A stretch of DNA of 64,000 nucleotides from Desulfomicrobium sp. ZS1 (lineage in GTDB: Bacteria > Desulfobacterota > Desulfovibrionia > Desulfovibrionales > Desulfomicrobiaceae): positions 1,798,001-1,862,000 of the forward strand of contig NZ_CP100351.1 in assembly GCF_024204645.1 (NCBI RefSeq), written 5' to 3'. The translations under genes were made by a program, and so were the position numbers. The notes under the pieces are model-generated. The model was not told the DNA's origin, did no database searches, and saw only the letters and a program-made list of their open reading frames with translations. Of the stretch, positions 2,035 to 24,500 are shown piece after piece (position 1 is the stretch's first letter; each line of letters opens with the position of its first letter).

Positions 2035-2200
2035 GAGAACAGTTTGGAGACGACGGGTACATATGAGCGATATCTCGGTTTTTTTTGTTGTCATACAATC
2101 CAACATATCTAGCGTTGCGCAGCAAGACACGCTACATCTGCACGGTCTCGCCCAGACTCCTGGGCGCAATCTGTGCAACCCTGAAGATATCGAGATCAGC

Positions 2201-4962: not shown

Positions 4963-5010
4963 AAGAGCCCTTAACCGGCAAACAATCAGCTCGCAAAGAA
5001 ACCCAAGATA

Positions 5011-5029
5011 CTTTCCATTTTCTGGAAAG
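5011..5029. promoter_or_regulatory. Inverted repeat, candidate WYL operator 1
   Basis: Perfect inverted repeat CTTTCCA-TTTTC-TGGAAAG lies 68 bases before the ATG of the small membrane protein gene at 5097. Its core TTCCA-N5-TGGAA has the same arms and spacing as the repeat at 6716-6732 in front of the WYL regulator gene. Seen directly; the operator role and the identity of the binding protein are inference. Confidence 0.5.
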
Positions 5030-5096
5030 ATGCTCGTGCATGCTCCTTCATCATGGCGGGGAAACGAATTTTCCCGTGAAATACAAGGAGGACTGT

Positions 5097-5393
5097 ATGA
5101 ACAAATTTTTATGGTTTCTGGGCGGATGTGCTACCGGACTGCTTGCCGCAGCGGCGATTTCCGTATTGGATGAAAGTTGCGGCTCGTCATCTTCATGTGA
5201 CGATGACGAGGATGTTGAATTTGCAGACGAGGACGCCCCTGATGAAGAGGCTCCGATCTATCCAGAAAATTATTGCAAGGCAGCTTCGGCAGTCTTTGCC
5301 AAAGCCTTCCCCCGCGGCGATGTCGACAGAAACAGCGACAACGAACAGACTGAGCGCGACATCCCTGACTGCCCCGATCACCAAACAACCTGA
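5097..5393 (+). CDS. Small acidic single-pass membrane protein
   Basis: 98-aa protein of unknown function. It begins MNKFLWFLGGCATGLLAAAA, a hydrophobic N-terminal segment that is either a signal anchor or a membrane helix, followed by a Cys/Ser patch, a strongly acidic stretch (CDDDEDVEFADEDAPDEE) and a short helical region. Start is fixed by a strong AAGGAGG site 5 bases before ATG 5097; a longer frame from 5040 has no such support. The zinc-ribbon gene at 5404 follows after 10 bases. An inverted repeat matching one at the WYL gene lies upstream. Not recognised as a named family. Confidence 0.75.
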   Translation: MNKFLWFLGGCATGLLAAAAISVLDESCGSSSSCDDDEDVEFADEDAPDEEAPIYPENYCKAASAVFAKAFPRGDVDRNSDNEQTERDIPDCPDHQTT

Positions 5394-5403
5394 GAGGAGA
5401 TTC

Positions 5404-5577
5404 ATGAAAATCCCCTGCCCCCAATGCGGCTCCAATAACACGAAGTGCTCCCCCGACGGTCCCAAAATTATCGCTTTGATTGAAAAGTTGCTCCCAATAA
5501 ACCCACGCGTCCCCGGTGGACGCTATACTGTGGAATGCAAAGATTGCGGGCACAAGGGACTCATCCTGGTCAACTAA
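5404..5577 (+). CDS. Small zinc-ribbon protein
   Basis: 57-aa protein with two CxxC knuckles, CPQCGS at residues 5-10 and CKDCGH near 46-51, so it should bind one zinc ion. Ribosome site GAGGAGA precedes ATG 5404. It lies 10 bases after the acidic membrane protein gene and is probably in the same transcript. Function unknown; such ribbons usually serve protein or nucleic acid contacts. Confidence 0.75.
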   Translation: MKIPCPQCGSNNTKCSPDGPKIIALIEKLLPINPRVPGGRYTVECKDCGHKGLILVN

Positions 5578-5613
5578 AAAAATGAGCGGCATGGGATCAC
5601 CTGTGCCGCTCAT
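5575..5613 (-). terminator. Intrinsic terminator between convergent genes
   Basis: A perfect 10-bp stem, ATGAGCGGCA at 5582-5591 with TGCCGCTCAT at 5604-5613 and a 12-base loop. On the minus strand the stem is followed by seven T residues, so it should end the WYL gene transcript. It may also slow plus-strand transcription from the zinc-ribbon gene, although that side lacks a clean T-run. Confidence 0.8.
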
Positions 5614-5651
5614 CTTGAAATACGCATCCCTCTTTTATTTTAAAGAAAATT

Positions 5652-6689
5652 TCAAGAAACTTCGCTTTGTGTCTCGCACAACGAATAATATCCCAAGGCA
5701 TCCGCCAATTCCTCGCGAACCCGCTCTCGTAGATGTGCAGGTCGCAGCAGTTCGGCTTCACGCCCAAAGCTCAAAATCCATTTGACCACCTCAAGTTCCG
5801 ATTGTGCTTGAAAGGTCAGCACCACAGACCCATCGGGAGCCTCCTCCAATCGGTCGCACGCGCTCCATTGGCGCTCCCTGACATACCTGGCACCGCCTGA
5901 ACTGAATTTGGCCGACACTTCAAAGGGGGTTGTCTGGCGCGACATCCCGAAATGACCGTTTTCATCGATAGGAGGCAGAACCCGCAGCGCTCCTTCAGGG
6001 ACTATTCGACGCGTCGGCTGCAGCACCTGCAGCCTATGAATGGCCAAGGTAATCTCACGCTGCACTTCCGGGACGCCCCTTTCGGCGACTGTCCACCCGC
6101 GAACATACAATGCTTCATGAAAAGCCATTACCCGCACAGGCACAAAAACATGCGTTTTTGGTGCGTCACGGTGCGGAGAAAGATAGTCAGCCGCCACCAC
6201 CTGCCGCTCCCGAATGGCAACCATGAGACGCTCAAGGATCTTCTCGAACGCTGAATAGTCGATGCGGCCTTTTGCAACGCCCTGGCCAAGTGGAGTCAGG
6301 GCATGGATGCGCGTCTCATAATCATCCAGAAGCACCGCCGCCTTCTCTGCCGTTTTTTCAAGATTGGCCCTCATCCCTTCGGGCAGCAAATGGCACATCC
6401 ATTCCCTGCACAACACGAGCTGCGACAGCTCCGTGTCGGTCAGAGTTACCTTGGGGCGGTCGCACAGCACCTGAATCTGATAGTAAGACTGGCGGTTTTC
6501 GGTTCGCCGCTGAAGCTTTGCTCCAGGAGTCGCTTCAAGTTGATCGATAAGCCGCAAGACCGTCTGGCGCGAACACTCAAGCTTCTCGGCGAGATCGCCA
6601 AGCGAGTAGGCCCGGCCAGTAAACAACAAAAGATACAGAAGCTTGAGAGCTTTTTCCGTAGCCGTGGACTCGTGTTTCTTACGGGGCAT
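5652..6689 (-). CDS. WYL-domain transcriptional regulator (second)
   Basis: Predicted 345-aa regulator. An N-terminal HTH of the DeoR/HTH_11 type (LGDLAEKLECSRQTVLRLIDQLE, residues about 25-50) is followed by a WYL domain (RQVVAADYLSPH, then VFVPVRVMAFHEALYVRGWT) and a C-terminal extension ending in RELRERVREELADALGYY-like helices typical of WYL proteins. Start ATG 6689 has GGAGG four bases upstream; the frame continues to 6722. An inverted repeat ATTCCA-N5-TGGAAT sits 27 bases upstream and is a good candidate for autoregulation. It faces the two small genes 5097-5577, which share the repeat, and diverges from the YkvA-like gene at 6827. Confidence 0.85.
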   Translation of the reverse strand: MPRKKHESTATEKALKLLYLLLFTGRAYSLGDLAEKLECSRQTVLRLIDQLEATPGAKLQRRTENRQSYYQIQVLCDRPKVTLTDTELSQLVLCREWMCHLLPEGMRANLEKTAEKAAVLLDDYETRIHALTPLGQGVAKGRIDYSAFEKILERLMVAIRERQVVAADYLSPHRDAPKTHVFVPVRVMAFHEALYVRGWTVAERGVPEVQREITLAIHRLQVLQPTRRIVPEGALRVLPPIDENGHFGMSRQTTPFEVSAKFSSGGARYVRERQWSACDRLEEAPDGSVVLTFQAQSELEVVKWILSFGREAELLRPAHLRERVREELADALGYYSLCETQSEVS

Positions 6690-6715
6690 CCATCCTCCAA
6701 AAATTTCGCCGAAAC

Positions 6716-6732
6716 ATTCCAAAATATGGAAT
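6716..6732. promoter_or_regulatory. Inverted repeat, candidate WYL operator 2
   Basis: ATTCCA-AAATA-TGGAAT, a perfect 6-bp inverted repeat with a 5-base spacer, lies between the divergent WYL gene (start 6689) and YkvA-like gene (start 6827). It matches the core and spacing of the repeat at 5011-5029. Probably autoregulatory; this is inference from position and repetition. Confidence 0.5.
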
Positions 6733-9121: not shown

Positions 9122-10843
9122 ATGATTACAAAGACTCATTATCAGAATAAAATTTCAGAAATGGAAAGAATTCTTGGAAAATATAATTTTTATAAAGAAA
9201 ATTTTGATGATTTAAAAGAGCTTGAAGCTTTTATCAACGACTATGCCTTTCGAGTTGTCATGATCGGCGGATTTTCTAGCGGCAAGAGTGCCTTGCTGAA
9301 TAGGCTTGCGGGGCGCGAATTGTTTAAGGAAGACCAGGGGCCGGAAACCGCGATACCCGCAGAGATTTCCTGGGCACCCATGGAGTCTGCCGCTGCCGTG
9401 TTTGAAGACGGCAGCGTAGAGCAATTTCCACTTGGAGGGCTTACAGAAAATCCACCGCGTGGGGCAATCTTTCTTTCTCTGAATGTGAATATACCCTTCC
9501 TCAAGGCAAGGCCGGAGCTCGTGCTGGTTGACTTCCCCGGTTTTGACTCCAACATCGAGGCACATAATAAAGCCATCAACAATTATTTACAGAGAAGCAG
9601 CGCCTTTATTCTGCTTATACCGGCAAGAAGCGGCGGAATGACGGAGTCTGACAGGAAATTCGTCAAGGAGGCTGCGCATTATCCGCAAGGTCTTGCCTGC
9701 TTCATTTCCAAATCTGATCTGGTTCCTCTGGAGCAATGCGATGAGATTGCAGTTTTCGTCCAGAAGAGCATTCGTGCGATTTACGGCACGGATGTCCCGG
9801 TTGAGACCATTTCCATCAAAGAAGACGTGGAGTCCCGCTTCGAAGACAAGATTGCGGTTGCTGTTGATCGCTTTCAGCCGCAGGAACTGTTCGACGTTTC
9901 TCTGGCGGCGCCCATTAATGCCGGAATCAGAAAGGGTATCATGGCCCTTACGCAGTACATGGAAGCAATCCAACTGGACGTGCACGACATTGAAAGTAAA
10001 ATTGCCGAATCCGAATCCAGACGGGTTGAACTGGGGCGGCAACTGGAAAATGAACGAAAAGCCATGGACCGCAAATATGATCTTGAAATCATACCAAATA
10101 TTATGGACAAGCTGGAAAATGCGCTACGCAATAATATCGACACGCTGGCCGAAGCGACCATTGCAGGGCAGCAGCGTTTTTCTGACAGCGTGCAGAGCAT
10201 TGTGCGGCCCATCCTGAATACAGTGCCGGGACAGATTCAATCCAATTTGCGTGATGTCGTGGGTGACATGCGTTTTAATTTTTTGCAGAAAGATCCTGAA
10301 AGGGAACAGAATTTCAAAATTGCCCTGCTTAATATTGTAGAGGTTGTCTCCTCGCTCCCCATGCTCGGCGGCGGCAAAGCCAATCCCAAGGTGTTGGGCA
10401 AAACTCCGGTCGGTACTTCGACAGGTTCCATATTGTCAGGCGTGGGCCCGGGTCTTGTGGTCGGCAGTGTGGTAAATCCCGTTCTGGGAGTGGTAGTGGC
10501 TCTGGCACCAGCCCTGATCGAACTGTTCTTCTCCGCGAAAGGCGCATCGCAGCCCACTGTACTTGATCAGGCGCGGACGCATGTGGAGTCGCAGGTCATT
10601 CCTTCCGTCATTGCCAGACTTGAGAACCAAATCGGCCCCGCTGTTCTGGAAACCCGCGATATGATGTTCACCGAAATCAAAGCTCGAATAGACGAAAGTC
10701 TTGCCGCCGAAACAATGGCTCTCGAAAGCGCCAAAAAGGAAAAGGACGGGCGAATTGCAGAGCATGAAAAAAGTGTTGCCCAAATGCAGCGAGATTTGGC
10801 CACCCTGCAGGACATGCTTATTGAAGGTAGCCATGAAGCCTGA
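9122..10843 (+). CDS. Dynamin-like GTPase 1 (LeoA-like)
   Basis: 573-aa dynamin-family GTPase. G1 is GGFSSGKS near residues 48-56, G3 DFPGFDS near 137, and a G4-like SKSD near 196. Long helical regions follow (about 280-345), then a Gly/Val-rich hydrophobic segment (about 435-475, GPGLVVGSVVNPVLGVVVA) that could be a membrane paddle, and a C-terminal coiled coil. Length and layout resemble LeoA of enterotoxigenic E. coli (known: LeoA is a bacterial dynamin working with LeoB and LeoC). GTP-driven membrane remodelling is the expected role. AGGAG lies 8 bases before ATG 9122. Its end overlaps the next gene by 11 bases. Confidence 0.85.
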   Translation: MITKTHYQNKISEMERILGKYNFYKENFDDLKELEAFINDYAFRVVMIGGFSSGKSALLNRLAGRELFKEDQGPETAIPAEISWAPMESAAAVFEDGSVEQFPLGGLTENPPRGAIFLSLNVNIPFLKARPELVLVDFPGFDSNIEAHNKAINNYLQRSSAFILLIPARSGGMTESDRKFVKEAAHYPQGLACFISKSDLVPLEQCDEIAVFVQKSIRAIYGTDVPVETISIKEDVESRFEDKIAVAVDRFQPQELFDVSLAAPINAGIRKGIMALTQYMEAIQLDVHDIESKIAESESRRVELGRQLENERKAMDRKYDLEIIPNIMDKLENALRNNIDTLAEATIAGQQRFSDSVQSIVRPILNTVPGQIQSNLRDVVGDMRFNFLQKDPEREQNFKIALLNIVEVVSSLPMLGGGKANPKVLGKTPVGTSTGSILSGVGPGLVVGSVVNPVLGVVVALAPALIELFFSAKGASQPTVLDQARTHVESQVIPSVIARLENQIGPAVLETRDMMFTEIKARIDESLAAETMALESAKKEKDGRIAEHEKSVAQMQRDLATLQDMLIEGSHEA

Positions 10844-13082
10844 AAACACTCCGAATCCCAGCGCTTTCCAAATCAAGCTTCAGGAGCTTCTCAGCTCCTT
10901 GCAAGTCTATGAAAGCATGGCTGACGAAGGGCTCATGGTCGAGCTGAAAAAGAACGCGCAGAGTATTGCAGCCAGCTACACCGATATCATGACAGCGAAC
11001 CGCAGTCTCAAGCTAGGCATTGTGGGCCGCGTCAAGGCCGGCAAGTCGTCATTTCTGAACGCTCTGATTTTTGATGGTCGCAATGTGCTGCCCAAAGCCG
11101 CTACCCCAATGACTGCCGCCCTGACCCGCATTGCCTACGCTCCTTCAGCAGAAGCGCAGCAAGCCTTTGTCTACTATTATAGCCGCGAAGAATGGACGCG
11201 CATTGAAGAAAGCAGTCGCCGCTACGATGAAAAACTGCGCAAGGGTGTGCAGATAGGATTGGAGGCATTGAATAACTCCCCCCGCAGAAAGGGAGCTCCG
11301 CCAAGTTCAGAGGATATAGCGTCAATCAAACGGGACGTGGCTGACCATATGCCGGAGGATTTGAAGGTCTGCCACGAGTTGGTGCAGATGGCCAAAAATA
11401 CCATTCAGCATGCTGATTTGCCGAGAGCGAAGGAGCAGGAAGATTGGTACTGCGTCGCGTCCGGTACTGACAGCGCCAAAACCTTCATCGAAAGTCTTGC
11501 CGAGTATGTTGGCGCCGATGGGCTGTATACTCCCATGGTCAAATATATCGAACTGCAGGTGTACGACAAGGGCCTTGAAGGTCTGGAAGTGGTTGATACT
11601 CCTGGCCTTAATGACCCCGTGGCGTCACGTGTGGACGTCACCAACCGGTTCTTGAAGGAATGTGACGCAGTTCTCGTGCTTTCGGGCGTATCACATTTTC
11701 TTGACGCCCAGGATTCAGATCTCATCAGCAAGCAGTTGCACAATGCAGGCGTGGCCCGAGCCTATATCATCGGCACGATGATGGATGTCGGCATTATGGA
11801 ATGCCCGCGACGCGATCTTAATCTGCAGACCGCATACAAGGAAAGCAAGCTAAACTATTTGCGTCAGGCTAAAACAGTTCTTAGCAGCCTGGAAAAAATC
11901 CAGCCCCTGCCCGGCAGGCTGAGCACCAATAGCCGTCCAGAATTCGTTTCTTCCATTATGTTCGGCATTTCCCGCAAGCTGCAGCAGAGAGAGGACCTGC
12001 ATTCTGAAGAAGCATTTGTTCTGGAACGACTTGACAAACTCTTTCCTGGCTACCAGAAACAATTGGCTACAGCGGAAGATTTCGCAAGTTTTGCCGGATT
12101 TGATGGAGTTCACACGAATATTTACATGCCTGTCTTTGAAGAAAAAGAAAAGATTGTGCAGGAGCGGATTGCGCAGTTTCAATCCGTGCAGGCTGGCGTT
12201 ATGTGCACTATGCTTGAAGACATCTGTATAGATGCTACCAATAGAAAATCTATATTGAAAAAAAACGATATAATGACGCTCAGCGAAAAGTTATCAGCCA
12301 TTCAGGAGAACTTGCAGTCAAGCAAAATTGAAGTTCGTGCTATTTTTGACGAAATCTCTATCAACAGCCAAAGAATAATCAACGATCTCAAGTTGAATGT
12401 GCGACAGGTTATGTCTGGATTTAAGCGGATCAAGGTCGAGTCTGAAGTCAAGACCCGCGAATACACCACAGGGTTCATTTTCAAAGACTATCACCACGAG
12501 GTGGAAACCATTCACAAAGCCAGTGTCAACGATGCCGCAGACAACATTGAGAACTATGTTGTCGAAGCAATGCGGCTTATAACAGCCGCATTCAGTGATA
12601 TGCTCAATATAAAGAGCATCGAAATGAAATTACGAAATGCCATATATGATACGTTTACGAGCGCTGATTCAGATTCCAGCAAGGCTGACATTATCGGACC
12701 TGTGCAGATTCTAGTGAACACATTGACAATACCAGAAATTGATTTCTCGTGTGCAGAAGAAGCGAAAAGAAATATTTTTAATAAGTTTTCGAGCCAAGTT
12801 TGCGACAGCCAGATTGAAGATCTTAAGGTTGAGCAGAATGAACAGCTTCAGCATGTTTATGCCAATATGGCCAATAATCTTGATGACGCCCTTGCCAAGT
12901 TGAAAAGTACTCTGGGATCGCATGGAGCGAATTTTATTGATAATGTGAGCGGAAAGATACGGCAATCTTATGAAACGATGGAAAAGCAGCTCAAGGATAA
13001 GGATAAAAACCTCCAGATGTACAAAGATTTTATAGATAATATGACTGCAATAAAAAAAGATTTTGCAGAATTTGGAATGTAA
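10833..13082 (+). CDS. Dynamin-like GTPase 2
   Basis: 749-aa dynamin-family protein. G1 is GRVKAGKSS near residues 64-72, then KAATPMTAALTRI as the G2 switch, and G3 DTPGLND near 254-261. The usual G4 (TKxD) is not visible; the position reads IIGTMMD, so nucleotide specificity may differ. A long helical stalk fills the C-terminal half with no strong membrane helix. ATG 10833 is chosen because it overlaps the end of gene 1 by 11 bases, a usual translational coupling; an upstream extension to 10701 lies inside the first gene. It probably acts as a hetero-partner of the adjacent dynamins. Confidence 0.85.
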   Translation: MKPENTPNPSAFQIKLQELLSSLQVYESMADEGLMVELKKNAQSIAASYTDIMTANRSLKLGIVGRVKAGKSSFLNALIFDGRNVLPKAATPMTAALTRIAYAPSAEAQQAFVYYYSREEWTRIEESSRRYDEKLRKGVQIGLEALNNSPRRKGAPPSSEDIASIKRDVADHMPEDLKVCHELVQMAKNTIQHADLPRAKEQEDWYCVASGTDSAKTFIESLAEYVGADGLYTPMVKYIELQVYDKGLEGLEVVDTPGLNDPVASRVDVTNRFLKECDAVLVLSGVSHFLDAQDSDLISKQLHNAGVARAYIIGTMMDVGIMECPRRDLNLQTAYKESKLNYLRQAKTVLSSLEKIQPLPGRLSTNSRPEFVSSIMFGISRKLQQREDLHSEEAFVLERLDKLFPGYQKQLATAEDFASFAGFDGVHTNIYMPVFEEKEKIVQERIAQFQSVQAGVMCTMLEDICIDATNRKSILKKNDIMTLSEKLSAIQENLQSSKIEVRAIFDEISINSQRIINDLKLNVRQVMSGFKRIKVESEVKTREYTTGFIFKDYHHEVETIHKASVNDAADNIENYVVEAMRLITAAFSDMLNIKSIEMKLRNAIYDTFTSADSDSSKADIIGPVQILVNTLTIPEIDFSCAEEAKRNIFNKFSSQVCDSQIEDLKVEQNEQLQHVYANMANNLDDALAKLKSTLGSHGANFIDNVSGKIRQSYETMEKQLKDKDKNLQMYKDFIDNMTAIKKDFAEFGM

Positions 13083-13087
13083 AAGCG

Positions 13088-14341
13088 ATGACATTTAATA
13101 CTGATGTAGATATTGATGATATTGCTGCTGTGCAGAACTCCTATCTTGCCAACCCCAATCGTGGGCTTGAGCTGGTGTCTTCGTTATTGGCCGGAGCTTC
13201 ACAGGCCAATGACAGAAAAATCAACAACACACTTGACGAAATGATTGCCGCCTGCGGTCGCCTTCACCTGCCGGAAGATGAGAAATATTTCGGCAAATTG
13301 CGGCAGCTTGTGGAGCTTCTCAAAACACCTGCCCGCTATAGGATGCTCAAGGGCTACACCATTGTGGGATTGGGTGGTCAGTTCAGCTCGGGCAAGTCTT
13401 CGGTTTTGAATTCCCTGCTGGAGACAGGGGCAGAGTTCAAGCTTCCCGAAAATACGCTGGCCTCCACATCCGTATCCACGTATATGATGTACGGCCAGAA
13501 GGGGACAGTGGCGGCTTGTACCAAAACTGGCCAGGAAGTGCCCCTCAATGCCGATGCTCTTGAGGCGGTGTCTCATGATTTCAACCGAATGCATGCGATC
13601 AATCCTGCACAATACATTGATTTTATTTCCATCGGCTTGCCGCAGTTCCGTGTCAAAAGCATCGCCCTGCTGGATACTCCCGGCTACAACGCCAGTGATG
13701 TTGCCACGCTGCAGGAATATACGGACAAAAGGCGTTCTCTCAAGGCGCTTCGTTCTGTGGACCATCTTGTCTGGCTCATTTCAGCCAAAGAGCCCCTCTT
13801 AAGCAGAACAGACGCGAATTTCATCAAAAACCTCAATCTTTCCGGCAAAGTGACGGTGATTGCCAATAAATGTGACCAAGTCTGCGATATTTTCCAAAGC
13901 GCCAATCCAGACAATACCGACTGCATTAAAAAAATTCGTCGATGCTTTGACGAAGCTGGAATTGCCTGCGATGCGGTTATTCCATATTGCGCTAAAGATC
14001 CTGAGTGGAACGGAGGACGCAAAAGAGTGCTCGATTTTCTTACAAAGGCAGCATCTTCCAAGCAATATGCTGAAGATTGTGGAGCACAAATGGATATAAT
14101 TCTTACTGAACTTAAAAATGAATTTGAAAATATGCTCAGCAGCATGTCCATTGCGGAAATGGAAGAAATTGACACCTATGTTGACGCCTCGTCCAACCCG
14201 CTTGAACTGCAATCTCTTGTCAGGTTACGTGGTTTGATGGGTTTTGAGCGCTCCAAACTGCTTTACGATCACAGCATTTTCAATGCGTGTGCCGCTACTC
14301 TTTCACAATGGATAAAGCAACAGCAGATGTCTGCAAAGTGA
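13088..14341 (+). CDS. Dynamin-like GTPase 3 (short)
   Basis: 417-aa GTPase. G1 GGQFSSGKSS is near residues 96-105, G3 DTPGYNASD near 195 and a proper G4 NKCD near 259. It has only a short helical tail, so it is shorter than typical dynamins and may need a partner to supply a stalk. It starts 5 bases after gene 2 with no clear ribosome site (AAAAGCG), suggesting translational coupling. The next gene begins 9 bases after its stop. Confidence 0.85.
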   Translation: MTFNTDVDIDDIAAVQNSYLANPNRGLELVSSLLAGASQANDRKINNTLDEMIAACGRLHLPEDEKYFGKLRQLVELLKTPARYRMLKGYTIVGLGGQFSSGKSSVLNSLLETGAEFKLPENTLASTSVSTYMMYGQKGTVAACTKTGQEVPLNADALEAVSHDFNRMHAINPAQYIDFISIGLPQFRVKSIALLDTPGYNASDVATLQEYTDKRRSLKALRSVDHLVWLISAKEPLLSRTDANFIKNLNLSGKVTVIANKCDQVCDIFQSANPDNTDCIKKIRRCFDEAGIACDAVIPYCAKDPEWNGGRKRVLDFLTKAASSKQYAEDCGAQMDIILTELKNEFENMLSSMSIAEMEEIDTYVDASSNPLELQSLVRLRGLMGFERSKLLYDHSIFNACAATLSQWIKQQQMSAK

Positions 14342-14350
14342 GGAAAACCC

Positions 14351-16600
14351 ATGAATAATCGTACATTTCCTCTTCTGGCAGCGCTGTCATCCACGGATAT
14401 TGTGGAAGATAATGAGCTGGAAAAGAATCTCAATGGACTGAGAAAGAGTATTGAAGACGAATTACTGCCTAGGCTGTATGAAAGCCGCTATATCGAAAAA
14501 AGTCGTTTGGAACTGGGTCTGGACAGTGTCCTCAAGGATGCCGCCACGCTGTGCAGACGTCCGGAGTTGCTGGGACGCACATGTGTAGGAATAGTCTGCG
14601 CTGATGACACAGCCCTTCCGGTGATCGACGCTCTGGGGCACGACCGTGACTCCTTGGCGGCCTTTGATTGTGATTCCCGTTTTCACCATGCGTGGACTAT
14701 GCGAACTTCTATTCCTCTGTGGCTTGTTCATGACGCTGACAATCCCCGCGTGACTGTTGCCGATCTCATGGGCCGCGATGTAGCACTCAATGGCATCATT
14801 GGCGACCGTGAAAACAAACGAATCGCCCTTTTGCCCGAGGAGTACGAGACCCTGCTCGCCCTTGGCGAGGATGGTATCGATCCACGCGATGTAGTCTCTG
14901 CCCTGTCGTATTTTGTGCCTCTTAAACGCCCCCAGTCCGTCTATTTTATCTTACCGCCGCAAGAATTTGAACGCGACGGTTATGAAAAATACATCGCTCA
15001 ATGTGATGTAGTTTTTGTATGTGGCACTGTGCATAATGAATACTGTATCAACGCACTTTGTGATAATTTCAACATGCCTGTCTATTTTGTTGCAAAGGAC
15101 GCTGCCGCAGTCCGGGACACGGTCAAAATAATTAAGGACAAAGTACCAGAGCGTATTGTCGATGTTGTTAACATTAAAGATGTTGACTGTCTTCTTGACA
15201 GCTATAACGGATATGTTGATCGCATTACAATTTATGACAGATTAATGTATGAGATGCTTGCATTTATCGAATCTGTCAGTATCAAAATCGCGCAACACAG
15301 GAATTTGACTGATGATATTAAACGTGACTACATATTGTCTCTAAAAACACAGAGCAATATCAATGATATTTTAGAAAAAATTCAGAACGATTTTTTGCAA
15401 AACAATACGATGCTTGAAAAGAATAAAGATGACTTTTCAGCAGCTTATCACAGAGTTCTTGCGGATGCTGCAGACCTCGAGGCTCTGTTGCGCAATATCG
15501 GCCCAGCTCGCCCCAGCAATGAAGCGAACGGCCGACTACATGCAGGCCCTATGAGTCACAGTTCTTTGTGGCGGCGTATCATTCTGCGGGCGCTTGCGTC
15601 GGACAACCCCGCCCTTGCTGAGAAGTATCAGAATAAATTTGCCAAACTCTATCCTGAGCAGGCATTTGTTACTGAACTCTACATCAATAAGAACAAGCAG
15701 ATTCCCATTTCCCCAAGTAGCATAGAGCAACTACGTCATATGCCCGATAACCCGGAAGTATTTCGCGCCAAAATTTTCTTCCGTGAAGAACTGGGGCTTT
15801 CAGAGCAAGACTGCGCCGAAATTGCCGCGCTGTTGCCCAAACACAAGAATGCCGATGAAAAATATTTCTGGGCCGTACATTTGAACGAAGTGTACCAACA
15901 GCACAAAAAAAATGGAACGAGAGCCCCCCTCCCCTTTACCGATGTACTCACGGCCTTCAGGCGTGCCGTGTTGGCTGGCAGCGATGCGGCTGCGCAAACC
16001 TTTGCCATATATTGCGGCGGGGAAAATCTTTTCGACGAAGCGCGAGAAATCGCAGACATGGCACAACCCACTGCGGCCTTTGTGTACCGCTTGCTTTGCC
16101 TCACACGGGGCGATTCCACTACTGCCCACAGATATCTGAAAATGTCCGCCGCCCTAGAATATCCCGCCGCCGTGTCTAGTTTTGCTGAAGAATGCTGGGA
16201 AAATCGGGCTTGCGGCGCAGCTATTTCCTTTGACTATGGCGAAGGCGTTTTGAGGGGCATCGATAGCGAGGCCATAAACTCAGGCGTTGCCATTTATGAA
16301 TATCTGCAATCAAACAAGTTGCAGGGCTTAAACGTTCCAGACATTTCCGAACGTCTTGGCTTTTTTTATTTCTGCTCCGAACAATGGCGCAAAAGCAGGG
16401 CCGCTCTAGACAACGCACCAAGGACACCGGAAGGAAAATTCAGCCTCGCCGTCATGCTCAAATATGGCCACGGCGGCAATCTGAGCAAGGAGGAGGCCAT
16501 CAGGCTTATGATAGAAGCAGAATCTATGGACGGCTTTTTTGCCCGTGTAGCAACAGCAATAAAGAACAAGTGGCATGTTGATGATCGAGCCAGGATTTAA
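14351..16600 (+). CDS. Sel1/TPR-like repeat protein, possible pseudo-GTPase N-terminus
   Basis: 749-aa protein, not assigned to a named family. The N-terminal 300 residues alternate strands and helices in the order expected of a GTPase fold: RTCVGIVCADDTALPVIDALG near 75-95 where a P-loop would be, IPLWLVHDADNP near 117, CDVVFVCGTVHNE near 219 and MPVYFVAKDA near 240, but the GKS lysine is absent. Residues about 300-380 are coiled coil. The C-terminal third has Sel1/TPR-like helix pairs (AAQTFAIYCGG, HRYLKMSAALEYPAAVSSF, FSLAVMLKYGHGGNLSKEEA). GAGGAAAACCC precedes ATG 14351. It is likely a scaffold or regulator of the three dynamins. The degenerate-GTPase reading is inference. Confidence 0.75.
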   Translation: MNNRTFPLLAALSSTDIVEDNELEKNLNGLRKSIEDELLPRLYESRYIEKSRLELGLDSVLKDAATLCRRPELLGRTCVGIVCADDTALPVIDALGHDRDSLAAFDCDSRFHHAWTMRTSIPLWLVHDADNPRVTVADLMGRDVALNGIIGDRENKRIALLPEEYETLLALGEDGIDPRDVVSALSYFVPLKRPQSVYFILPPQEFERDGYEKYIAQCDVVFVCGTVHNEYCINALCDNFNMPVYFVAKDAAAVRDTVKIIKDKVPERIVDVVNIKDVDCLLDSYNGYVDRITIYDRLMYEMLAFIESVSIKIAQHRNLTDDIKRDYILSLKTQSNINDILEKIQNDFLQNNTMLEKNKDDFSAAYHRVLADAADLEALLRNIGPARPSNEANGRLHAGPMSHSSLWRRIILRALASDNPALAEKYQNKFAKLYPEQAFVTELYINKNKQIPISPSSIEQLRHMPDNPEVFRAKIFFREELGLSEQDCAEIAALLPKHKNADEKYFWAVHLNEVYQQHKKNGTRAPLPFTDVLTAFRRAVLAGSDAAAQTFAIYCGGENLFDEAREIADMAQPTAAFVYRLLCLTRGDSTTAHRYLKMSAALEYPAAVSSFAEECWENRACGAAISFDYGEGVLRGIDSEAINSGVAIYEYLQSNKLQGLNVPDISERLGFFYFCSEQWRKSRAALDNAPRTPEGKFSLAVMLKYGHGGNLSKEEAIRLMIEAESMDGFFARVATAIKNKWHVDDRARI

Positions 16601-16685
16601 TTTTTATATACACGCAATAGAATTTCCTGTACATAGACAACCATTCTAATTTTTGTAAAAACCTTTTTACGTGGAGGATACTTGC

Positions 16686-17195
16686 ATGCCTTTTCCTTTA
16701 CTTGTACCATTTGGCGCAGCAATTGCCAGTGCTATTGGCACTGCTGCCGGTGCCGCTGCTACTGTCGGTGCAGTTGCAGCGGCCGGGGCCACTGCTGTGG
16801 CCACAGCAGCTGTGGCTGCCGCGCCCTTTCTTGCAGCAGGAGCCGCTGTACTTGGCGGATTGGCCATTACAGGCTATATAGTTGAACAAAATGAAAGAGC
16901 CCAAAGGGAAGCACGCGAGGCAGCCGAGAAAATAGCCTCGCGTGAGCGCGAAAAAGAGCTGCTCAAGAAAAAGACACAATTTGAAGAGAAAGTGAGCAAC
17001 CTGGAAAAACAATACGGAAGTAAAGTCCCCCAAAATAAACAGGAAGAGATCTTAAAGGCCAGCTCAGTATTATTGGGCGAATTTGAAGGCAATAAAGCCG
17101 GGCTTGCAACCAAGGGCCAGTCTTCATCCAGCAAGGCAGACGCAGCTGCGGCGGAACTCATAGCATTTCAGGAACAATGTGGCCTCAAAAAGTAA
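16686..17195 (+). CDS. Ala/Gly-rich membrane segment plus coiled-coil protein
   Basis: 169-aa protein. Residues about 5-62 are a long, almost purely Ala/Gly/Val/Thr hydrophobic region with GxxxG-type spacing, able to form a membrane hairpin. A charged coiled coil follows (about 65-115, KEKELLKKK and similar), then a polar tail. GGAGG lies 8 bases before ATG 16686; an upstream GTG at 16671 overlaps that site and is unlikely. The gene follows the Sel1-like gene by 85 bases and precedes the CxxCxxCC and radical SAM genes. It could be the membrane element of the dynamin system or a substrate of the radical SAM enzyme; both are inference. Confidence 0.75.
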   Translation: MPFPLLVPFGAAIASAIGTAAGAAATVGAVAAAGATAVATAAVAAAPFLAAGAAVLGGLAITGYIVEQNERAQREAREAAEKIASREREKELLKKKTQFEEKVSNLEKQYGSKVPQNKQEEILKASSVLLGEFEGNKAGLATKGQSSSSKADAAAAELIAFQEQCGLKK

Positions 17196-17222
17196 TGGGA
17201 GTGGTCTGCCACTACAAATTCC

Positions 17223-17504
17223 ATGACGTTTGATTGCGACAAGTGCGGAGCCTGTTGCCGCCATCTCAAGCTTTTTGGCGACGCGTACGCTTGGCTTGTG
17301 GATGGCGGTACAGGCATGTGTCGTTATTTCGACCCAAATACCAATCTCTGCACCATCTATCCCATCCGGCCTTTGATGTGCAATATTGACCTGGGCTATG
17401 GCCTCTTTTTTTCGCATATTCCCTATGCAGAATTTATCGAAAAAAACAGGCAGGCCTGCGGCGTACTAAAGAAACTTCCCCCAGACCTCAAACATCACGA
17501 ATGA
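17223..17504 (+). CDS. YkgJ-type CxxCxxCC cluster protein
   Basis: 93-aa protein with the metal-cluster signature CDKCGACC at residues 5-12, then GMCRYFDPNTNLCTIYPIRPLMC, the typical YkgJ/UPF0153 pattern for zinc or iron-sulfur binding. It overlaps the radical SAM gene by 4 bases (ATGA), so both are translationally coupled and probably work together. The start ATG 17223 is 27 bases after the previous stop; its ribosome site is weak. Confidence 0.8.
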   Translation: MTFDCDKCGACCRHLKLFGDAYAWLVDGGTGMCRYFDPNTNLCTIYPIRPLMCNIDLGYGLFFSHIPYAEFIEKNRQACGVLKKLPPDLKHHE

Positions 17505-18544
17505 CTACTCTCAATTTTCCCCACGATATTGCCTATGTCCAGAATCTTGCCCGAACAATTGCGCCCTGTGCCGTAAAGAAAAAAGACCATCATTTCAATT
17601 TGGGTATTGGCCTGTCCACGCGCTGCAACTTCCGTTGCCCCATGTGTTATTATCACAGCGAAACGGGCGACTTCGTCGAGCCAAGAGACATGCCCCTGTC
17701 TCTTTTGGATGCAATCCTAAATCAATTACCAACCCTTGCAAACATAACCGTTGGATTGGAGGGCGAACCCTTTTGCCATCCGTCCATATTCCAGGCTTTG
17801 GATATGATGGCCCAAAAATCGGACAGGATCAGCATTGTTTCCAATGGCAGTCTACTAACACCCAGCGTATGCCGCACCCTTTCAGCCTATCCCATTACCC
17901 TCTTTGCCTTGAGCATTGATGCCGCAGATACTGCGGCCTATGCCAAATTTCGTGTCGGAGGAAATCTCCAGACCTTCAAAAAGCACGGTGCCTGCCTCGC
18001 AGAATATTTTGGAGATGCAGTGCGCCTGCACACGGTCATGTTTGCGGAAAATCTTGATTCCATCTTCCAGATGCCTCAGGTAGCAGCAGAGATGGGTATC
18101 GGACATATTAGCTTTCAGCAATTACGCCCTCATGCGGCTGCCCTGAGACGCGGCATTACTCCTTCAGACCATTTTGAACTGGAGTCGTGCCTTAACCGGC
18201 TTATTGAGAATGCTAAAAAATACAATATTGTACTGCATTTTGATAGTTTTTTCGCAAACAAAACCATCATGCAGATGCTGTCTGACATTTCAGAAACAAC
18301 TTCGGTCGTTAGCGTACAACCACACGTGGGCAAGCAGTGCCCCTATATTTTCAATTTCACTTCCATTCTTTCCGATGGCCGCATCTTCCCCTGTTGCGGA
18401 GATTTTCGACCGGCTGAAGTTGGTGACTATTCTTTTGACGGCATTTTCAATCACGACTACTTGAAAAGTTTGCGTACCCTCTGTCTCCAAAGCATTCCAA
18501 TGGCACCGTGTTCTTTATGTAGACAGGACCTCATGGATTACTGA
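17501..18544 (+). CDS. Radical SAM/SPASM domain protein
   Basis: 347-aa enzyme. The radical SAM cluster motif CNFRCPMC (CxxxCxxC) lies near residues 43-50, a GLEGEPFCH SAM-binding segment near 86, and a C-terminal SPASM/twitch region has CPYIF, FPCCGDF and APCSLC cysteines for an auxiliary Fe-S cluster. Such enzymes modify peptides or proteins, for example in RiPP or anaerobic maturation pathways. It ends the dynamin-associated gene string and overlaps the YkgJ-type gene. Its target is unknown; the small Ala/Gly-rich protein two genes upstream is the nearest candidate. Confidence 0.88.
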   Translation: MTTLNFPHDIAYVQNLARTIAPCAVKKKDHHFNLGIGLSTRCNFRCPMCYYHSETGDFVEPRDMPLSLLDAILNQLPTLANITVGLEGEPFCHPSIFQALDMMAQKSDRISIVSNGSLLTPSVCRTLSAYPITLFALSIDAADTAAYAKFRVGGNLQTFKKHGACLAEYFGDAVRLHTVMFAENLDSIFQMPQVAAEMGIGHISFQQLRPHAAALRRGITPSDHFELESCLNRLIENAKKYNIVLHFDSFFANKTIMQMLSDISETTSVVSVQPHVGKQCPYIFNFTSILSDGRIFPCCGDFRPAEVGDYSFDGIFNHDYLKSLRTLCLQSIPMAPCSLCRQDLMDY

Positions 18545-18657: not shown

Positions 18658-19065
18658 TCACCTTTTAATATGATCTAAAAATCTTTCTACAAAAAAAACT
18701 ATTTCTCCTGAGAGCGCTTTCAAAACATAATCACCATCCTTCAATTCAAAATCATATTTTTTTTCTACATAATTTTTGATTAAAAGATTCATATCCTCAT
18801 CATCTTTTCTCATCTTATCCGCATATTTTTTCCCGAAAACAATATAATTTAGGTCCAGATTATATTGTTTTGCAATCAAAATAGCCCACGATGCCGGGAA
18901 CGTGTTTCCGGTTTTTTGCTTCGACACTGAAGCACTCGATATCCCCAGAAACTCTGCAAGGTTCGTCGATGTCTTGAGATCCGTCTGCTCGGAAATTCGC
19001 CTGAAAACGCCCTCAAATTCCAAATCCATTCCCGCTCGACTCACATTGTCCTCCAAGTTTTTCAT
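18658..19065 (-). CDS. CI-like phage repressor family HTH regulator
   Basis: About 135-aa regulator with a bacteriophage CI-type HTH (FRRISEQTDLKTSTNLAEFL then GISSASVSKQKTGNTFP), followed by NLDLNYIVFGKK and a short C-terminal region without the LexA-like peptidase. Start is ambiguous: ATG 19065 begins MKNLEDN, but GTG 19044 has a better GGAGG site 5 bases upstream, and ATG 19029 begins the HTH itself. It is divergent from the nuclease-like gene at 19235; a palindrome in that promoter is its likely operator. Local composition is AT-rich compared with the Wadjet genes. Confidence 0.75.
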   Translation of the reverse strand: MKNLEDNVSRAGMDLEFEGVFRRISEQTDLKTSTNLAEFLGISSASVSKQKTGNTFPASWAILIAKQYNLDLNYIVFGKKYADKMRKDDEDMNLLIKNYVEKKYDFELKDGDYVLKALSGEIVFFVERFLDHIKR

Positions 19066-19156
19066 CTTTATTCTAAATAAAATCAGGAAAAATCTAAGCA
19101 ATTTACCGGTGTTATAAAAGAAGCTTCAACGCAACGCAAATATTTTTAAATAATAC

Positions 19157-20530: not shown

Positions 20531-21523
20531 TCAGAAAAGCACCCCTTCCAAATTCATCCCGCGTTTCCTGAGCTGGTAAAGCACCTGCTCTTGTTCAGCC
20601 TGCAGCTTATGACGCCTACCCCACCTCGCCAGGTCCTTCAACCGGTCATTGCGCAACGCGTCCTCGCGGAATGATCTTGCGCCCTGCCATGTAGGCAGAT
20701 CGGCCTTCAGAAATTCCAGTGTTTCCCGATTAGGAAAGAACTCCCCGTCACGCTCCGCTGTGGCAGAGAGCCTGTCGAATATGGCAAGTCCGTCAGCATC
20801 GAAGTCCCCGAAGTGAATCCAGCGGCTTGACTCCGGAGCCGATTGGAGCCAGGCGGCCACCCCTCTGGAGGCGTAGCCACCCGTGTAGATGAGCAGTCCG
20901 GCAGGCAGGGCGAGTTCCAGAAAGGGAGAGAGATTTTCGCAGGTCATGATGAAGTGAAGATGCGACAGATCATACTGCTCGGGGCGAACATGAGAGGACA
21001 TCAGGACGGCCTGACCCTGGTATTTCGTGACGTCGAAAAGATCTGGGCCTCCTGCTGTGTGCGGGAGCGGAGAAAAAGCCTTGAGCCGCAACTCTCCCCG
21101 GCTGGGCTTAAGGGCGAGCCAATCCTCGTAGATTCGGGACAGGATGGAGACGGAGCCGATGTGCTTCGAGTTCCCGAAAAGCTCGGCGCTGAGTTGCTGC
21201 CGCCAGACCAAGCCTACGGCCTGCTCGGTCTTTTCCAAGGCCATGAGCAGGCGCAGGCAGTCTGATGCCCGATCGGTGATCCGTACCCCCAGCCCCATGG
21301 CCGCCGCCAGTGATTCGGCTGAATCCAGCTTGGCAAGGGCGTCCGAAAACTCGGGCGTAGCTAGCAGCCGCTGCATTTCTTCCTCTTCGACCAACACGGC
21401 GCTGTTCTTCTCACGCCGTACGATCCCAGCCCGTTCGAGCATGGCAAACTCGGCGTTCCAACCCACCCTGCCCCGCTCAAGCAACCCTCGCCAGGCCAGA
21501 CATCTTGCTGTCAGGTCCTTCAC
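20531..21523 (-). CDS. jetD: Wadjet nuclease subunit JetD
   Basis: 330-aa topoisomerase-VI-like Toprim protein. The Toprim triad is visible: Glu in CENLSPF at residue 196 and GDFDADG with acidic residues at 240-244, followed by a C-terminal DUF2220-like part. In Wadjet, JetD cleaves plasmid DNA after loop extrusion by JetABC (known). It starts with GTG whose GTGA overlaps the jetC stop, so it is translationally coupled and last in the operon. At 330 aa it is shorter than some type I JetD proteins. Confidence 0.85.
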   Translation of the reverse strand: MKDLTARCLAWRGLLERGRVGWNAEFAMLERAGIVRREKNSAVLVEEEEMQRLLATPEFSDALAKLDSAESLAAAMGLGVRITDRASDCLRLLMALEKTEQAVGLVWRQQLSAELFGNSKHIGSVSILSRIYEDWLALKPSRGELRLKAFSPLPHTAGGPDLFDVTKYQGQAVLMSSHVRPEQYDLSHLHFIMTCENLSPFLELALPAGLLIYTGGYASRGVAAWLQSAPESSRWIHFGDFDADGLAIFDRLSATAERDGEFFPNRETLEFLKADLPTWQGARSFREDALRNDRLKDLARWGRRHKLQAEQEQVLYQLRKRGMNLEGVLF

Positions 21524-24500
21524 GCAATTTCTCCGGCAGGCTCGTCATCGTCGTTTCCTGCGGCAACCGCTTCCGCCGCCTGCGGGACATAGACCCCCAC
21601 ATGAGTCACGCCCTGCGGTAGCGCGGTGAGAATATGCGTCAGCGAGTCCGGAATGTTGAGCATCCTGGGCAAGGCCAGCACCAGCTGGCACTCCACCCTG
21701 TCCAGCAGGTCGCGCACGGTGTTCATGGCCCGCTCATCAAGGCGCTCGGCCTCGTCCAGGGCCATGAGTAGGATGCCGCTGCCGCGATGCTGGCCTGAAT
21801 CCGAGCCTTCGTAGAAAAGCAGACTCAGGCAAATGGACAGGTTGATGCCGAGGCCCTCACCGCTTGAAAAACCGCTGCGGCGTTCACGGCCTTCGTCGTC
21901 CTCGATGGCCCATCGCAGGCGGACATAGGTGCGGTAATCGGTGATCTGATCGTCTTCGAGTTGCGCGCCCTTGGCGTGGCGGGCGATGATCTCCCGGATC
22001 TGGTCCAAGAATTCACGCAAACCCACCGCTGCTCCGGACGAAAAGAGCGACAGCTGACCGGTGCCCCGCAAATGCTTGAGACCTTCGTAAGCGGGCTCAT
22101 GCACTTTCTCCAGATACACCTTGCGCACCTTGCCAAAGCCCAGATTGGAGAGGATGTCGTTGATCCTTTGCAGCTTGCGGGTCAGGGCGCGGATATCGGC
22201 ATCCACGTTGTTGCGGATCGCCTCGACGTATCCGCGCAGCTTGCTTTCGATCTTCGCCAGTTCGTCCCGCAGGGCCTTGAGCTTCTCTTCCTCGCGATCA
22301 AGCTCCACGTCGGGAGGCAGCAGCATGGTCAGCACATCGCCCACCAGCTGATCGGGTTCCCTGTCCCGGGGCATGGCCAGCTCCTGGCCGTATTCGCGGC
22401 AGACAAGCTCCAGTTGCCCGGTCAGGGCCACCCTGGCCTCGGCCCAGGCCTGACGGGCTTCGGCTCGCTTGGCCTCATTCCAATCTCCATGGAGGGCACC
22501 GGGGTCGTCCCCGGGATAATACCGGCTCCAATGCGCGGTGGCCTGTTCCATTTCCTGACCAGCATGTCGGAGCTTGCCGGATATATCGTTGAGCGTGCTG
22601 GACCTGTTCTGTACGTCGGCGCGCAGCTTGCCCAGCTGCTCAGCTCCGGCGCGCATTTTCCCCTTGATGGAGGTCAGCTCCTTATTCAGCTCCGCCACCC
22701 GTCTCGCCATGAGCTCGGCCTGTGTGAAATCGACGCGCCCTTCCAGAACATCGAGCGGCTCATCCTTTTCCAGAGTTTCGCGCAGGGAAAGGGCCTTGGC
22801 CCTTGAATTATCGGACTCCCTCCGTTCCCGCTCAAGTTCGGTCTGCCGTTTCTGAAATTCTTCCTTACTGGCACGCAGCCTCGCGAGGCCCTCTTCCAAG
22901 GCTTTCACGTCTCGTTCCAGCTCCACGATCCTGGCGCGCACGGCATCGAGTTGCGCCGGGCTTTCCGCCAGTTCAAAGGACTGGATGCGGCTTTTGAGCT
23001 TCTCGACGCAGTCATGGCAAGCCTTGGTCCGGGCCTGCCCTTCGGACACAACGCGAACACGGTTGGCCAGGGCCTCTTCAAGCCCCACGCTCTCCCGATC
23101 GCACAAAGCGTCCCACGCCCCAAGCACTGCGGCTAGACGCTCTTCCAGCCCCCGCTGGGAAGCCCTCTCGGCTTTGAGACGAGCCATGGTCGCGTCACAT
23201 TCCTCCAGTTCCCGAGCAAGGACGATGAGCTGCTCGGCCCGCGCGCGGCTGGACAGCCAGACCGGGCCCTGCGGCTCGTACCAGGCCAAAGCGCCCCGCC
23301 CGCCAACCGCAGCAGTGCGGCTTGCCCAGTCCTCTTCCCCGGCCTCAGAGGTGACCACGAAAACCCTGTCCGTTCCTTCCAGCTTGTCCAGAATCTCAGC
23401 GCCCTCCCTCGGTCGGATTGCCAGAGCAAAGGGACCAAGGCGCGTCTGCCATGCCGCAGCCTCCTGGACGTCGAGCTGGTCAAAATCCATGGCCACGGGA
23501 TCAGCCAGACCCAGATCGACCATGCGCTGCGCCTCGGGCGGCAGGGGCGGACGGCCCTGGGCCAGGGTGTCGCGCAGCTGCTGAATACGACCGCGCTCGG
23601 CCACAAGTTTCTCTTCCTTGAGGCTCAGGCGGATGACGTCATCCTTGGTAGCGCGCAGCCTGGCCTCAACGTCCTCGCGTTGGGGAGGATCGGTCACCGC
23701 GTTCACTGCCATCAGACCCTTCCAAAGCAGCAAAGCCTCTTCATGGCGTTTCGTGCGGCGGCGCAGTTCCGTCAGCTGTTCCTTCCACGTGGGCAGAAGA
23801 CGCAGTTCCTGATAAGGCCCGTCCCACTCGTTCCAGGCCTCGACGACATCGAAGGCCGAGGCGACCTTGCGGCCCAAAATTTCCGCAGCCTTGACCAGAT
23901 CGGCCTCGAAGCTCCGCCAAGCCTTCACGTCCTTGGCCAGCTGGGTTTCCTGCCCGGCCATCTTCTCCCGTTCAACCAAAAGCTCTGTCCGCTTGGCATT
24001 GCCAAAAGTGATCTCCTCCGAGACGACGCGGCACTTCTCGCTGGTGCTCGTCTGTTCGGAAAGAATGGCCTGAAGACACTTGTCCGCCTCGGCCAAAATT
24101 TTGCCAGCCGCGACGTATTCTTTATGCCTGCGTAACTGTGCATCCAGCGACGATTGCTGTTTCTGCAACAGATCGCGTTGGGTGAAAACCTCGGATTCCT
24201 GCTTCTCCAGGCTGGTCAAGGCGGTCTGCTGCGCTTCCAGCTCCTGCTGGGCCTTTTCCTGCTCCGCCCGAAGCCTGCCCTCCTGCTGCCGCAGGGCCTG
24301 AACACGCCCCGAGGATACCACAAGGTCGGCGGCCAGGCTCTCTCTGCGCGCGCTATCCAAAGCAAGGCGCAACTCCTCAAGTTTGAGCCGCGTCTCCCGG
24401 AAGCGGACCAGACGCTTGAGACGTTCCTCCACGCCGCGACGGTCGTGCATCAGCTTTTCCACGTCGCTAAAATTCATCTTCCTGGCGGGGGGTGGGCAAA

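Follow-up and report, generated by a model that had tools for sequence, protein, structure and literature searches.

A conserved four-gene dynamin unit with a predicted pseudo-GTPase on a Sel1 array in Desulfomicrobium sp. ZS1

Bacterial dynamins have mostly been described as side-by-side pairs (PMC6104087). In the LeoABC system of Escherichia coli H10407, LeoA is accompanied by a second dynamin that is split into LeoC and LeoB, and disruption of leoAB reduces vesicle-linked secretion (PMC4159319). The Dynamins and Eleos classes have been merged (PMC11811056). The Campylobacter pair DLP1/DLP2 shares an operon with an HcpA-like beta-lactamase, and DynA of Bacillus subtilis is a single protein made of two fused dynamins (PMC6104087) that confers phage resistance through delayed lysis (PMC8844932). 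Here we analysed a stretch of 64,000 nucleotides from Desulfomicrobium sp. ZS1 (NZ_CP100351.1, positions 1,798,001 to 1,862,000; hereafter the window), in which an earlier reading of the sequence, the original prediction, had seen an undescribed system of three dynamins and four accessory proteins. The findings presented here point to a shorter unit. On balance, and with moderate confidence, we favour the view that positions 9122-16600 encode a self-contained, horizontally moving machine of four subunits, the dynamins D1, D2 and D3 and the protein P4, whose role would most likely be immune (anti-phage or membrane-damage).

Seven open reading frames (ORFs) were confirmed between 9122 and 18544, all on the + strand and with the predicted sizes (in amino acids, aa) and order:

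9122-10843, + strand: D1, dynamin-like GTPase, 573 aa (Dynamin_N, 65.8 bits, E 6.4e-18)
10833-13082, + strand: D2, dynamin-like GTPase, 749 aa from the ATG (Dynamin_N, 74.8 bits, E 1.1e-20)
13088-14341, + strand: D3, dynamin-like GTPase, 417 aa (Dynamin_N, 44.1 bits, E 2.9e-11)
14351-16600, + strand: P4, predicted pseudo-GTPase (D3-like, about residues 2-380) fused to Sel1 repeats (about 400-749), 749 aa, from profiles and an AlphaFold2 model
16671 (GTG start) or 16686 (ATG start) to 17195, + strand: P5, hydrophobic, Ala/Gly-rich membrane coiled-coil protein, neighbour outside the conserved unit
17223-17504, + strand: CxxCxxCC (YkgJ-type) protein (Pfam CxxCxxCC, 30.8 bits, E 4.7e-7), neighbour outside the conserved unit
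17501-18544, + strand: radical SAM enzyme (Pfam Radical_SAM, 50.7 bits) with a sub-threshold SPASM match, neighbour outside the conserved unit

D1, D2 and D3 exceeded the Pfam cut-off for Dynamin_N (27 bits), and the Radical_SAM and CxxCxxCC matches exceeded theirs (29.5 and 23 bits). The three consecutive dynamins and the 11-base overlap between D1 and D2 were as originally predicted. The following gaps, given earlier as 4-9 bases, are 5 bases (D2-D3) and 9 bases (D3-P4), but a larger gap of 70 bases (GTG start) or 85 bases (ATG start) between P4 and P5 had gone unmentioned. P5 and the CxxCxxCC gene are 27 bases apart, and the latter overlaps the radical SAM gene by 4 bases. The description of this last protein as a radical SAM-SPASM enzyme held for the first domain, but the SPASM match lay slightly below its cut-off (20.7 versus 21.5 bits). 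D2 could alternatively start at an upstream TTG, giving 793 aa. P4, as a single sequence, had no Pfam match close to any cut-off. Since D1 to P4 have homologues in many genomes, chance ORFs are ruled out for these four genes.

A single-sequence search with P4 matched 1 of 297 genomes, its own, with no match in plasmids and none confirmed in genome contigs. Searches with D1 and D2 yielded plasmid loci in E. coli, P. aeruginosa, Photobacterium, Moraxella, Calditerrivibrio and others that carried several dynamin genes together; the E. coli plasmid encoded dynamins of 563, 724 and 405 aa, in that order, and then an 829-aa protein. A search with six aligned D2 proteins (A1) retrieved 240 relatives in genome contigs, the best 80 of which were kept and combined with seven earlier loci. 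All locus counts below refer to these 87 relative loci (L020-L106), in which the genes of unannotated relatives are ORF calls made in this analysis. D1, D2 and D3 were all identified in 61 of the 87, ordered D1-D2-D3 in 30, D1-D3-D2 in 24 and otherwise in 7; in the remaining loci one dynamin was not found, often at a contig end. P4 followed D3 in 24 of the 30 D1-D2-D3 loci, two others (L027 and L037) ended at the contig edge, and P4 was also present in L030 and L041, where D1 is cut off, which gives 26 loci besides the window. An iterative P4 profile drifted into dynamins, and its hit list was not used as evidence. A profile built only from 23 P4 proteins (alignment A2) separated P4 from D3-type proteins: it matched these 26 P4 proteins over their full length with 344-946 bits, and D3-type proteins stayed at 73 bits or below, 73 bits being the score of the next-best protein. 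The P4-bearing loci span Bacillota, Synergistota, Pseudomonadota and the window's own order. L022 and L047 are nearly identical, and L032, L034 and L035, all within the 30, are identical; these three share 100% identity over 8.4-8.9 kilobases (kb), the entire length of two of the contigs, in three differently named Clostridia, which may reflect either recent transfer or a binning problem.

In the D2 tree, calculated without L034 and L035 (copies of L032) and without D2 rows shorter than 600 aa (including L028 and L063), the window and every P4-bearing locus with a retained D2 formed a single clade of 26 rows (support 99). In the 19 loci with all four proteins, outside which L028 and L063 also fell, pairwise distances correlated with r 0.86-0.91 for all six protein pairs, and 0 of 999 permutations gave values as high. 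These comparisons demonstrate, at the level of sequence, that D1, D2, D3 and P4 are inherited together. Recurrence in the same order in unrelated genomes had been set as the test of the seven-gene reading; it holds, with compact spacing, for the first four genes, but all seven were never kept together in the relatives examined, so that by this test the seven-gene claim fails.

The distribution of the unit is scattered. Of the 247 genomes searched from the window's order, only two have D2 (E 1e-20), the window's own and G422, and it was absent from the 15 further genomes of the genus; the nearest relative, at 39% identity, lies on a rumen Synergistaceae contig. The P4 profile (E 1e-8) matched 58 genomes of the order, only the same two beyond the Sel1 part, and the other matches listed were confined to profile positions 586-734. 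Such scattered presence is the pattern of a horizontally moving unit. The borders can be read from the E. coli plasmid L022 and the Citrobacter werkmanii locus L047, which lies on a draft contig of 223 kb. The two have 7,710 base pairs in common at 99.04% identity, starting 62 bases ahead of the annotated start of D1 and ending 59 bases past the P4 stop. No other common stretch was detected in the compared pieces (blastn, E 1e-20), and the flanks are unrelated. The next ORF called past P4 is on the opposite strand in L029, L033, L040, L043, L047 and L051, and in L024 the next gene is unrelated and lies about 580 bases further on. Taken together, the shared border and the unrelated or opposite-strand next genes indicate that the four genes are probably sufficient as a unit. 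When the ends of the L047/L022 unit were searched for transposon-like structure, the longest match of one end to the reverse complement of the other was 6 bases. D1 to P4 thus appear to travel as a unit between unrelated bacteria, as judged from their distribution and borders.

The last three genes had been counted as parts of the system, and this did not survive the comparison. The CxxCxxCC gene had a homologue in 1 of the 87 loci (L079, which has another gene order), the radical SAM gene had one superfamily-level match among the ORFs of the 87 loci (L063, E 4.6e-5, inside a different block), P5 had no homologue there at E 1e-3, and, as noted, the Citrobacter/E. coli copy stops shortly after P4. 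No CxxCxxCC homologue lay past P4 in the 26 P4-bearing loci, a result that is informative for the 19 with at least 3.3 kb of sequence past P4, the other seven being cut within 1.6 kb. At E 1e-15, a scan of 199 genomes of the order gave the radical SAM gene 1 other match, with 27% identity, and at E 1e-8 the CxxCxxCC gene had none in 296 other genomes of the phylum. CxxCxxCC homologues occurred on 41 plasmid records. In Klebsiella and Duffyella plasmids the gene follows a gene for a Gly/Ala-rich membrane coiled-coil protein of about 360 aa and another of about 520 aa, and in C. difficile it stands between a gene of about 520 aa and a member of the same coiled-coil family of about 340 aa; these stretches contain no annotated dynamin. 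The annotation also places a WYL gene close by in C. difficile and, as a fragment, in Klebsiella. In Vitreoscilla the CxxCxxCC match lies behind a coiled-coil member of about 330 aa, beside a restriction-modification locus, and in L079 the coiled-coil, 520-aa-type and CxxCxxCC genes lie before D1. As a side observation, these genes constitute a recurrent cassette (L115-L117 and L079:360-3326) of a coiled-coil protein of about 340-365 aa, a protein of about 520-555 aa with an HNH-like motif by eye and a CxxCxxCC protein, in some cases with a WYL regulator.

Given the near-absence of the three genes from the relatives examined and the existence of CxxCxxCC cassettes without annotated dynamins, we read P5, the CxxCxxCC protein and the radical SAM enzyme as a probable neighbouring cassette rather than subunits. 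An alternative is a seven-gene system in which the radical SAM enzyme would have P5 or a dynamin as its substrate and the CxxCxxCC protein would donate a cluster or metal. It would fit the single strand throughout, the 4-base overlap of the last two genes, the CxxCxxCC and P5-like genes before D1 in L079, and a different radical SAM block found right behind P4 in three clostridial loci. This block encodes a protein of about 300 aa, a radical SAM enzyme, a protein of about 260 aa and a U32 peptidase:

L030, 5826-9373: block behind P4
L031, 11480-15011: block behind P4
L063, 15620-19220: block behind P4

Radical SAM enzymes hence recur near the unit, but not as the window's cassette. Against a seven-gene system stand the gap before P5, the related cassettes in Klebsiella, Duffyella and C. 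difficile and the likeness of P5 to the family of about 360 aa, which is weak (best E 1.6e-4 in a 19-sequence comparison, and prone to composition effects). We therefore rejected it on gene neighbourhoods and regard it as improbable; the four-gene claim stands. The radical SAM gene did not qualify as a prokaryotic viperin, reaching 42.9 bits with NCBIfam NF038283 (cut-off 180 bits).

P4 had been described as a Sel1/TPR-like protein. This was correct for its C-terminal half, but a dead dynamin-type GTPase N-terminus had been overlooked. When family profiles were compared, P4 matched the D3 family (23 proteins, alignment A3) with E 2e-15 and probability 98.5 in hhalign, over 343 columns that cover nearly all of D3, as against a probability of 77.8 for D1 and nothing for D2 (1.4), which relates P4 to D3. 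Similarly, after P4 itself the next-best matches of the P4 profile among all ORFs of the 87 loci were D3 proteins, with E values down to 3e-21; they cover the first 395 or so profile positions and belong mostly to D3 of other dynamin operons (the sister operons below), and also to D3 of P4-bearing loci (for instance L086, 2e-15). None of 23 P4 proteins has the GTP-binding P-loop and none has the DxPG motif, and P4 was accordingly filed as a related pseudo-GTPase and not as a dynamin GTPase. The AlphaFold2 model (mean predicted local distance difference test score, pLDDT, 81.9) has an alpha/beta domain (77-285), helices up to residue 383 and then helical repeats. Mitofusin 2 (Mfn2) was its first Foldseek match (E 8.6e-5), and BDLP, SynDLP and Sel1 proteins also matched below 1e-3. 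With VIA-align, the N-terminal part aligned to IniA (Z 11.8, root-mean-square deviation (rmsd) 3.9 over 190 residues) and to Mfn1, Fzo1 and DLP1 (Z about 11, rmsd 6-15), so that a dynamin-type G domain and neck are recognisable at the domain level only (global TM-scores 0.2-0.3). The C-terminal part aligned to Sel1/TPR proteins (Z 12-13; HcpC, Z 13.0, rmsd 8.1 over 240 residues), and the family profile matched the solved Sel1 protein 8sxq at 3.1e-32. Since the Z values are moderate and repeats readily produce high scores, the profile matches are the stronger evidence. A C-terminal CFI-box motif is present in 12 of 23 P4 proteins and is missing from the window's P4. On profiles and predicted fold, P4 is best described as a putative catalytically dead homologue of D3 carried on a Sel1 array.

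The three dynamins retain the motifs that P4 has lost. The P-loop is present in 23/23 D1, 23/23 D3 and 86/88 D2 family members, DxPG in all 23 of D1 and of D3, and DTPG[LMI]NDP in 79 of 88 D2, which, with the Dynamin_N matches, places D1, D2 and D3 in the dynamin superfamily. A strong hydrophobic segment was found in every D1 (23/23), in no D3 (0/23), in no D2 (0/88) and in one P4 (1/23); in the window's D1 the strongest 21-residue window begins at residue 446. As this segment is confined to D1 among the dynamins, D1 is the likely candidate for the membrane-inserting subunit. D2 is predicted to be BDLP/DLP1/SynDLP-like with a long trunk (AlphaFold2, pLDDT 82.1), and its model has a helical insert in the G domain (118-191) and a beta-hairpin at the trunk tip (535-564). 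Along its length it matched SynDLP, BDLP, Campylobacter DLP1 and IniA (Foldseek E 3e-14 to 1e-10). Structural alignments gave Z 18-24 with rmsd values of 8-45, owing to differences between hinged parts; Z was 23.6 for SynDLP (Foldseek E 3.3e-14) and 22.0 for Campylobacter DLP1 (5owv, rmsd 15.5 over 379 residues).

How does the unit compare with the described systems? It shares with the LeoABC/Dynamins-Eleos class several dynamin-like proteins encoded by adjacent genes. In contrast to LeoA and a split second dynamin, however, the window encodes three whole GTPases and a Sel1 pseudo-GTPase, and LeoA beside LeoB/LeoC is not the arrangement found. The LeoA subfamily model (NCBIfam NF041922, cut-off 325) gave 14.9 bits for D1 and 14.6 for D3, and D2 was not listed. 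Among the 2023 PADLOC models none matched a component of the unit strongly and over its full length: the best match reached 34.8 bits over part of D1, which resembled LeoA (2.5e-9) and LeoB (2.4e-6; 24.7 bits, part of D1) weakly, and D2 and P4 had no match. The original view that the set departs from LeoABC was supported, for the three dynamins and the Sel1-like protein, by these scores and by the gene make-up. The weak PADLOC matches of D1 would fit a plain LeoABC/Eleos system fallen below model thresholds, but the distance from the LeoA cut-off and the different set of genes make this quite improbable. We rather regard the four genes as a variant of the LeoABC/DLP kind that, by the tested cut-off, would not be a LeoA member. 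The likeness to the heterotypic Campylobacter pair DLP1/DLP2 (5owv) lies in the sequence-profile matches of D1 and D2 and in the model fold of D2. That system has two dynamins, with no pseudo-GTPase mentioned in the available part of its description, whereas the unit has P4; HcpC, a Sel1-type protein among the fold matches of P4, offers a possible parallel to the HcpA-like protein of the Campylobacter operon. BDLP (Nostoc), SynDLP, mitofusin/Fzo1 and IniA resemble D2 and the N-terminal half of P4 in fold, but P4 stands apart through its missing P-loop and its Sel1 repeats. DynA is a precedent for dynamin-based phage resistance and differs in being a single fused protein. Among the titles and abstracts listed in searches of the open PMC literature, which leave subscription papers and bioRxiv largely outside, none described an operon of three dynamins and a Sel1 protein.

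Loci with D2 outside the P4 clade form sister operons, mostly ordered D1-D3-D2 and often with extra genes of about 400 aa before D2. In 16 loci, D2 is followed by a member of an ATPase cluster of about 1,040 aa, the one member scanned being HerA-like. In several of them the ATPase is followed by small nuclease genes, of the WHH type in L074 and L092, the LHH type in L070 and, below threshold, the HNH type in L083; SUKH genes occur there as well (L070, L083, L092 and L103). To examine gene neighbourhoods, we used 114 immediate neighbours, excluding L034, L035, L029:5065-7839 (which reduced 115 to 114), ORFs below 150 or above 1000 aa, P4 proteins and genes between dynamins. Colicin-DNase/WHH models matched 7 of the 114. 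A short N-terminal pattern written from the small genes matched 5 ORFs, all among the 14 examined. Dynamin operons with a HerA-like ATPase and small genes were observed in L061, L069, L070, L072, L074, L077, L081-L084, L088, L092 and L103. The same title-and-abstract search of the open PMC literature, again with subscription papers and bioRxiv largely outside, found no description of dynamins with polymorphic toxins, and a term search in the available part of a broad polymorphic-toxin survey (PMC3482391) did not return dynamins. In a separate observation, a Ruegeria plasmid (L026, 3705-16777) carries four dynamin genes followed by genes for a Ser/Thr kinase, an FHA protein and a PP2C phosphatase.

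Another possibility is a toxin- or vesicle-export machine, of which the sister operons would be the complete form. As has been proposed for LeoABC, its dynamins would reshape the envelope so that vesicles are released or toxins deployed. The effect of leoAB disruption on secretion and the ATPase, nuclease and SUKH genes fit this explanation. However, neither an ATPase cluster member nor a toxin-immunity pair was noted beside the unit in the P4-bearing loci listed, and the LeoA model excluded D1 and D3 and did not list D2; we consider export rather unlikely for the window's unit. A broader and tentative possibility is that multi-dynamin operons are an undescribed class of conflict machines with dynamin remodelling as the common engine and two branches: one in which a Sel1/dead-dynamin sensor licenses a membrane assembly of three GTPases, and another in which the same GTPase types and a HerA-like ATPase deploy SUKH-guarded nuclease toxins.

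Returning to the immune reading of the four-gene unit, its surroundings in the window contain the following genes (strand given where assigned):

83-1480: ADP-ribosylglycohydrolase
1943-3169: WYL regulator
3181-4959: NERD-UvrD helicase
5652-6722, - strand: HTH-WYL-WCX regulator (second WYL, by Pfam), possible island regulator
18658-19101: CI-type repressor
20531-25985, - strand: Wadjet-type JetD (JetD_C), MukB-like JetC and MksE-like JetB
25873-27180, - strand: ORF in the JetA position, no model match

The Wadjet-type genes, the NERD-UvrD helicase and the WYL regulators bear out the placement in a defence-like island. The helicase (E 5e-193) and the second WYL regulator (phmmer, E 4.4e-39) have homologues near dynamins in G422 (L024), and a homologue of the glycohydrolase lies directly behind P4 in Syntrophomonas (L086, 15967-17154; E 2.5e-117). 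As an observation in its own right, the helicase, a small Zn-ribbon protein and the WYL regulator at 3181-6722 may be a second system that travels with the dynamins, as in L024. BrxR-family WYL regulators are often found with phage defence systems (PMC9122601). WYL models (E 1e-10) matched 12 of the 114 neighbours versus none of 54 control proteins, taken from other genomes of the window's phylum (17 of 20 stretches existed, 2 of them shorter than set); the same control gave one TPR and one MotB-type match. No more than 2 kb from the core, 16 of the 87 loci, mostly sister operons, had a match to a WYL profile that was itself seeded from WYL genes in this position. Further downstream, the flagellin gene at 27649-29178, of a repeated gene family, has an internal LamG/ConA-like domain between conserved ends.

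Several observations weigh against an immune unit of four genes. The neighbours and the control proteins do not come from the same taxa, and it was in sister operons, not in the P4 clade, that WYL genes were most in excess. Apart from WYL, known defence models matched single neighbours, among 25 of 63 families listed. Viral contigs held no confirmed relative of D2 (nor of the CxxCxxCC gene), and the phage search gave one short partial match, to D1. In E. coli the unit is rare (5 of 5,426 genomes). D1-D2-D3 occurs without P4 in four loci (L020, L023, L025 and L104), which fall outside the P4 clade of the D2 tree. As to P4 itself, the window's protein shares only 14-21% identity with 21 of 22 aligned relatives (36% with the closest), and a loose G4-like pattern, [NTS]KxD, is kept in 13 of 23, but it is short enough to arise by chance. 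Finally, many relatives adjoin ordinary genes (tRNA synthetase, ATP-synthase and aminotransferase families). Bacterial dynamins can serve membrane surveillance (PMC8844932), and several loci among core-type genes would suit a housekeeping operon for membrane maintenance. The presence in 2 of 247 genomes of the order and in no other of the genus, and near-identical copies between unrelated flanks on an E. coli plasmid and a Citrobacter contig, render this explanation very improbable.

If the four subunits do form an immune machine, P4 might be a catalytically dead partner of D3, the two pairing through their G domains, and the Sel1 array of P4 could detect a trigger or bring it in. Release or activation would then allow GTP-driven assembly of D1 and D2 on the inner membrane, where D1 would insert and D2 would tether. 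The membrane could be remodelled or sealed, hindering lysis or phage release, or it could be damaged, so that the infected cell dies. The WYL-type regulators near part of the copies would provide the control that fits a costly weapon.

The 7.7 kb Citrobacter/E. coli copy makes the unit testable in laboratory E. coli. If this reading is true, a mobile unit in which a degenerate dynamin on a Sel1 scaffold accompanies three active ones would offer a simple genetic model for the control of dynamin assemblies by a dead GTPase, and would connect dynamins with bacterial immunity as well as with toxin-immunity operons.

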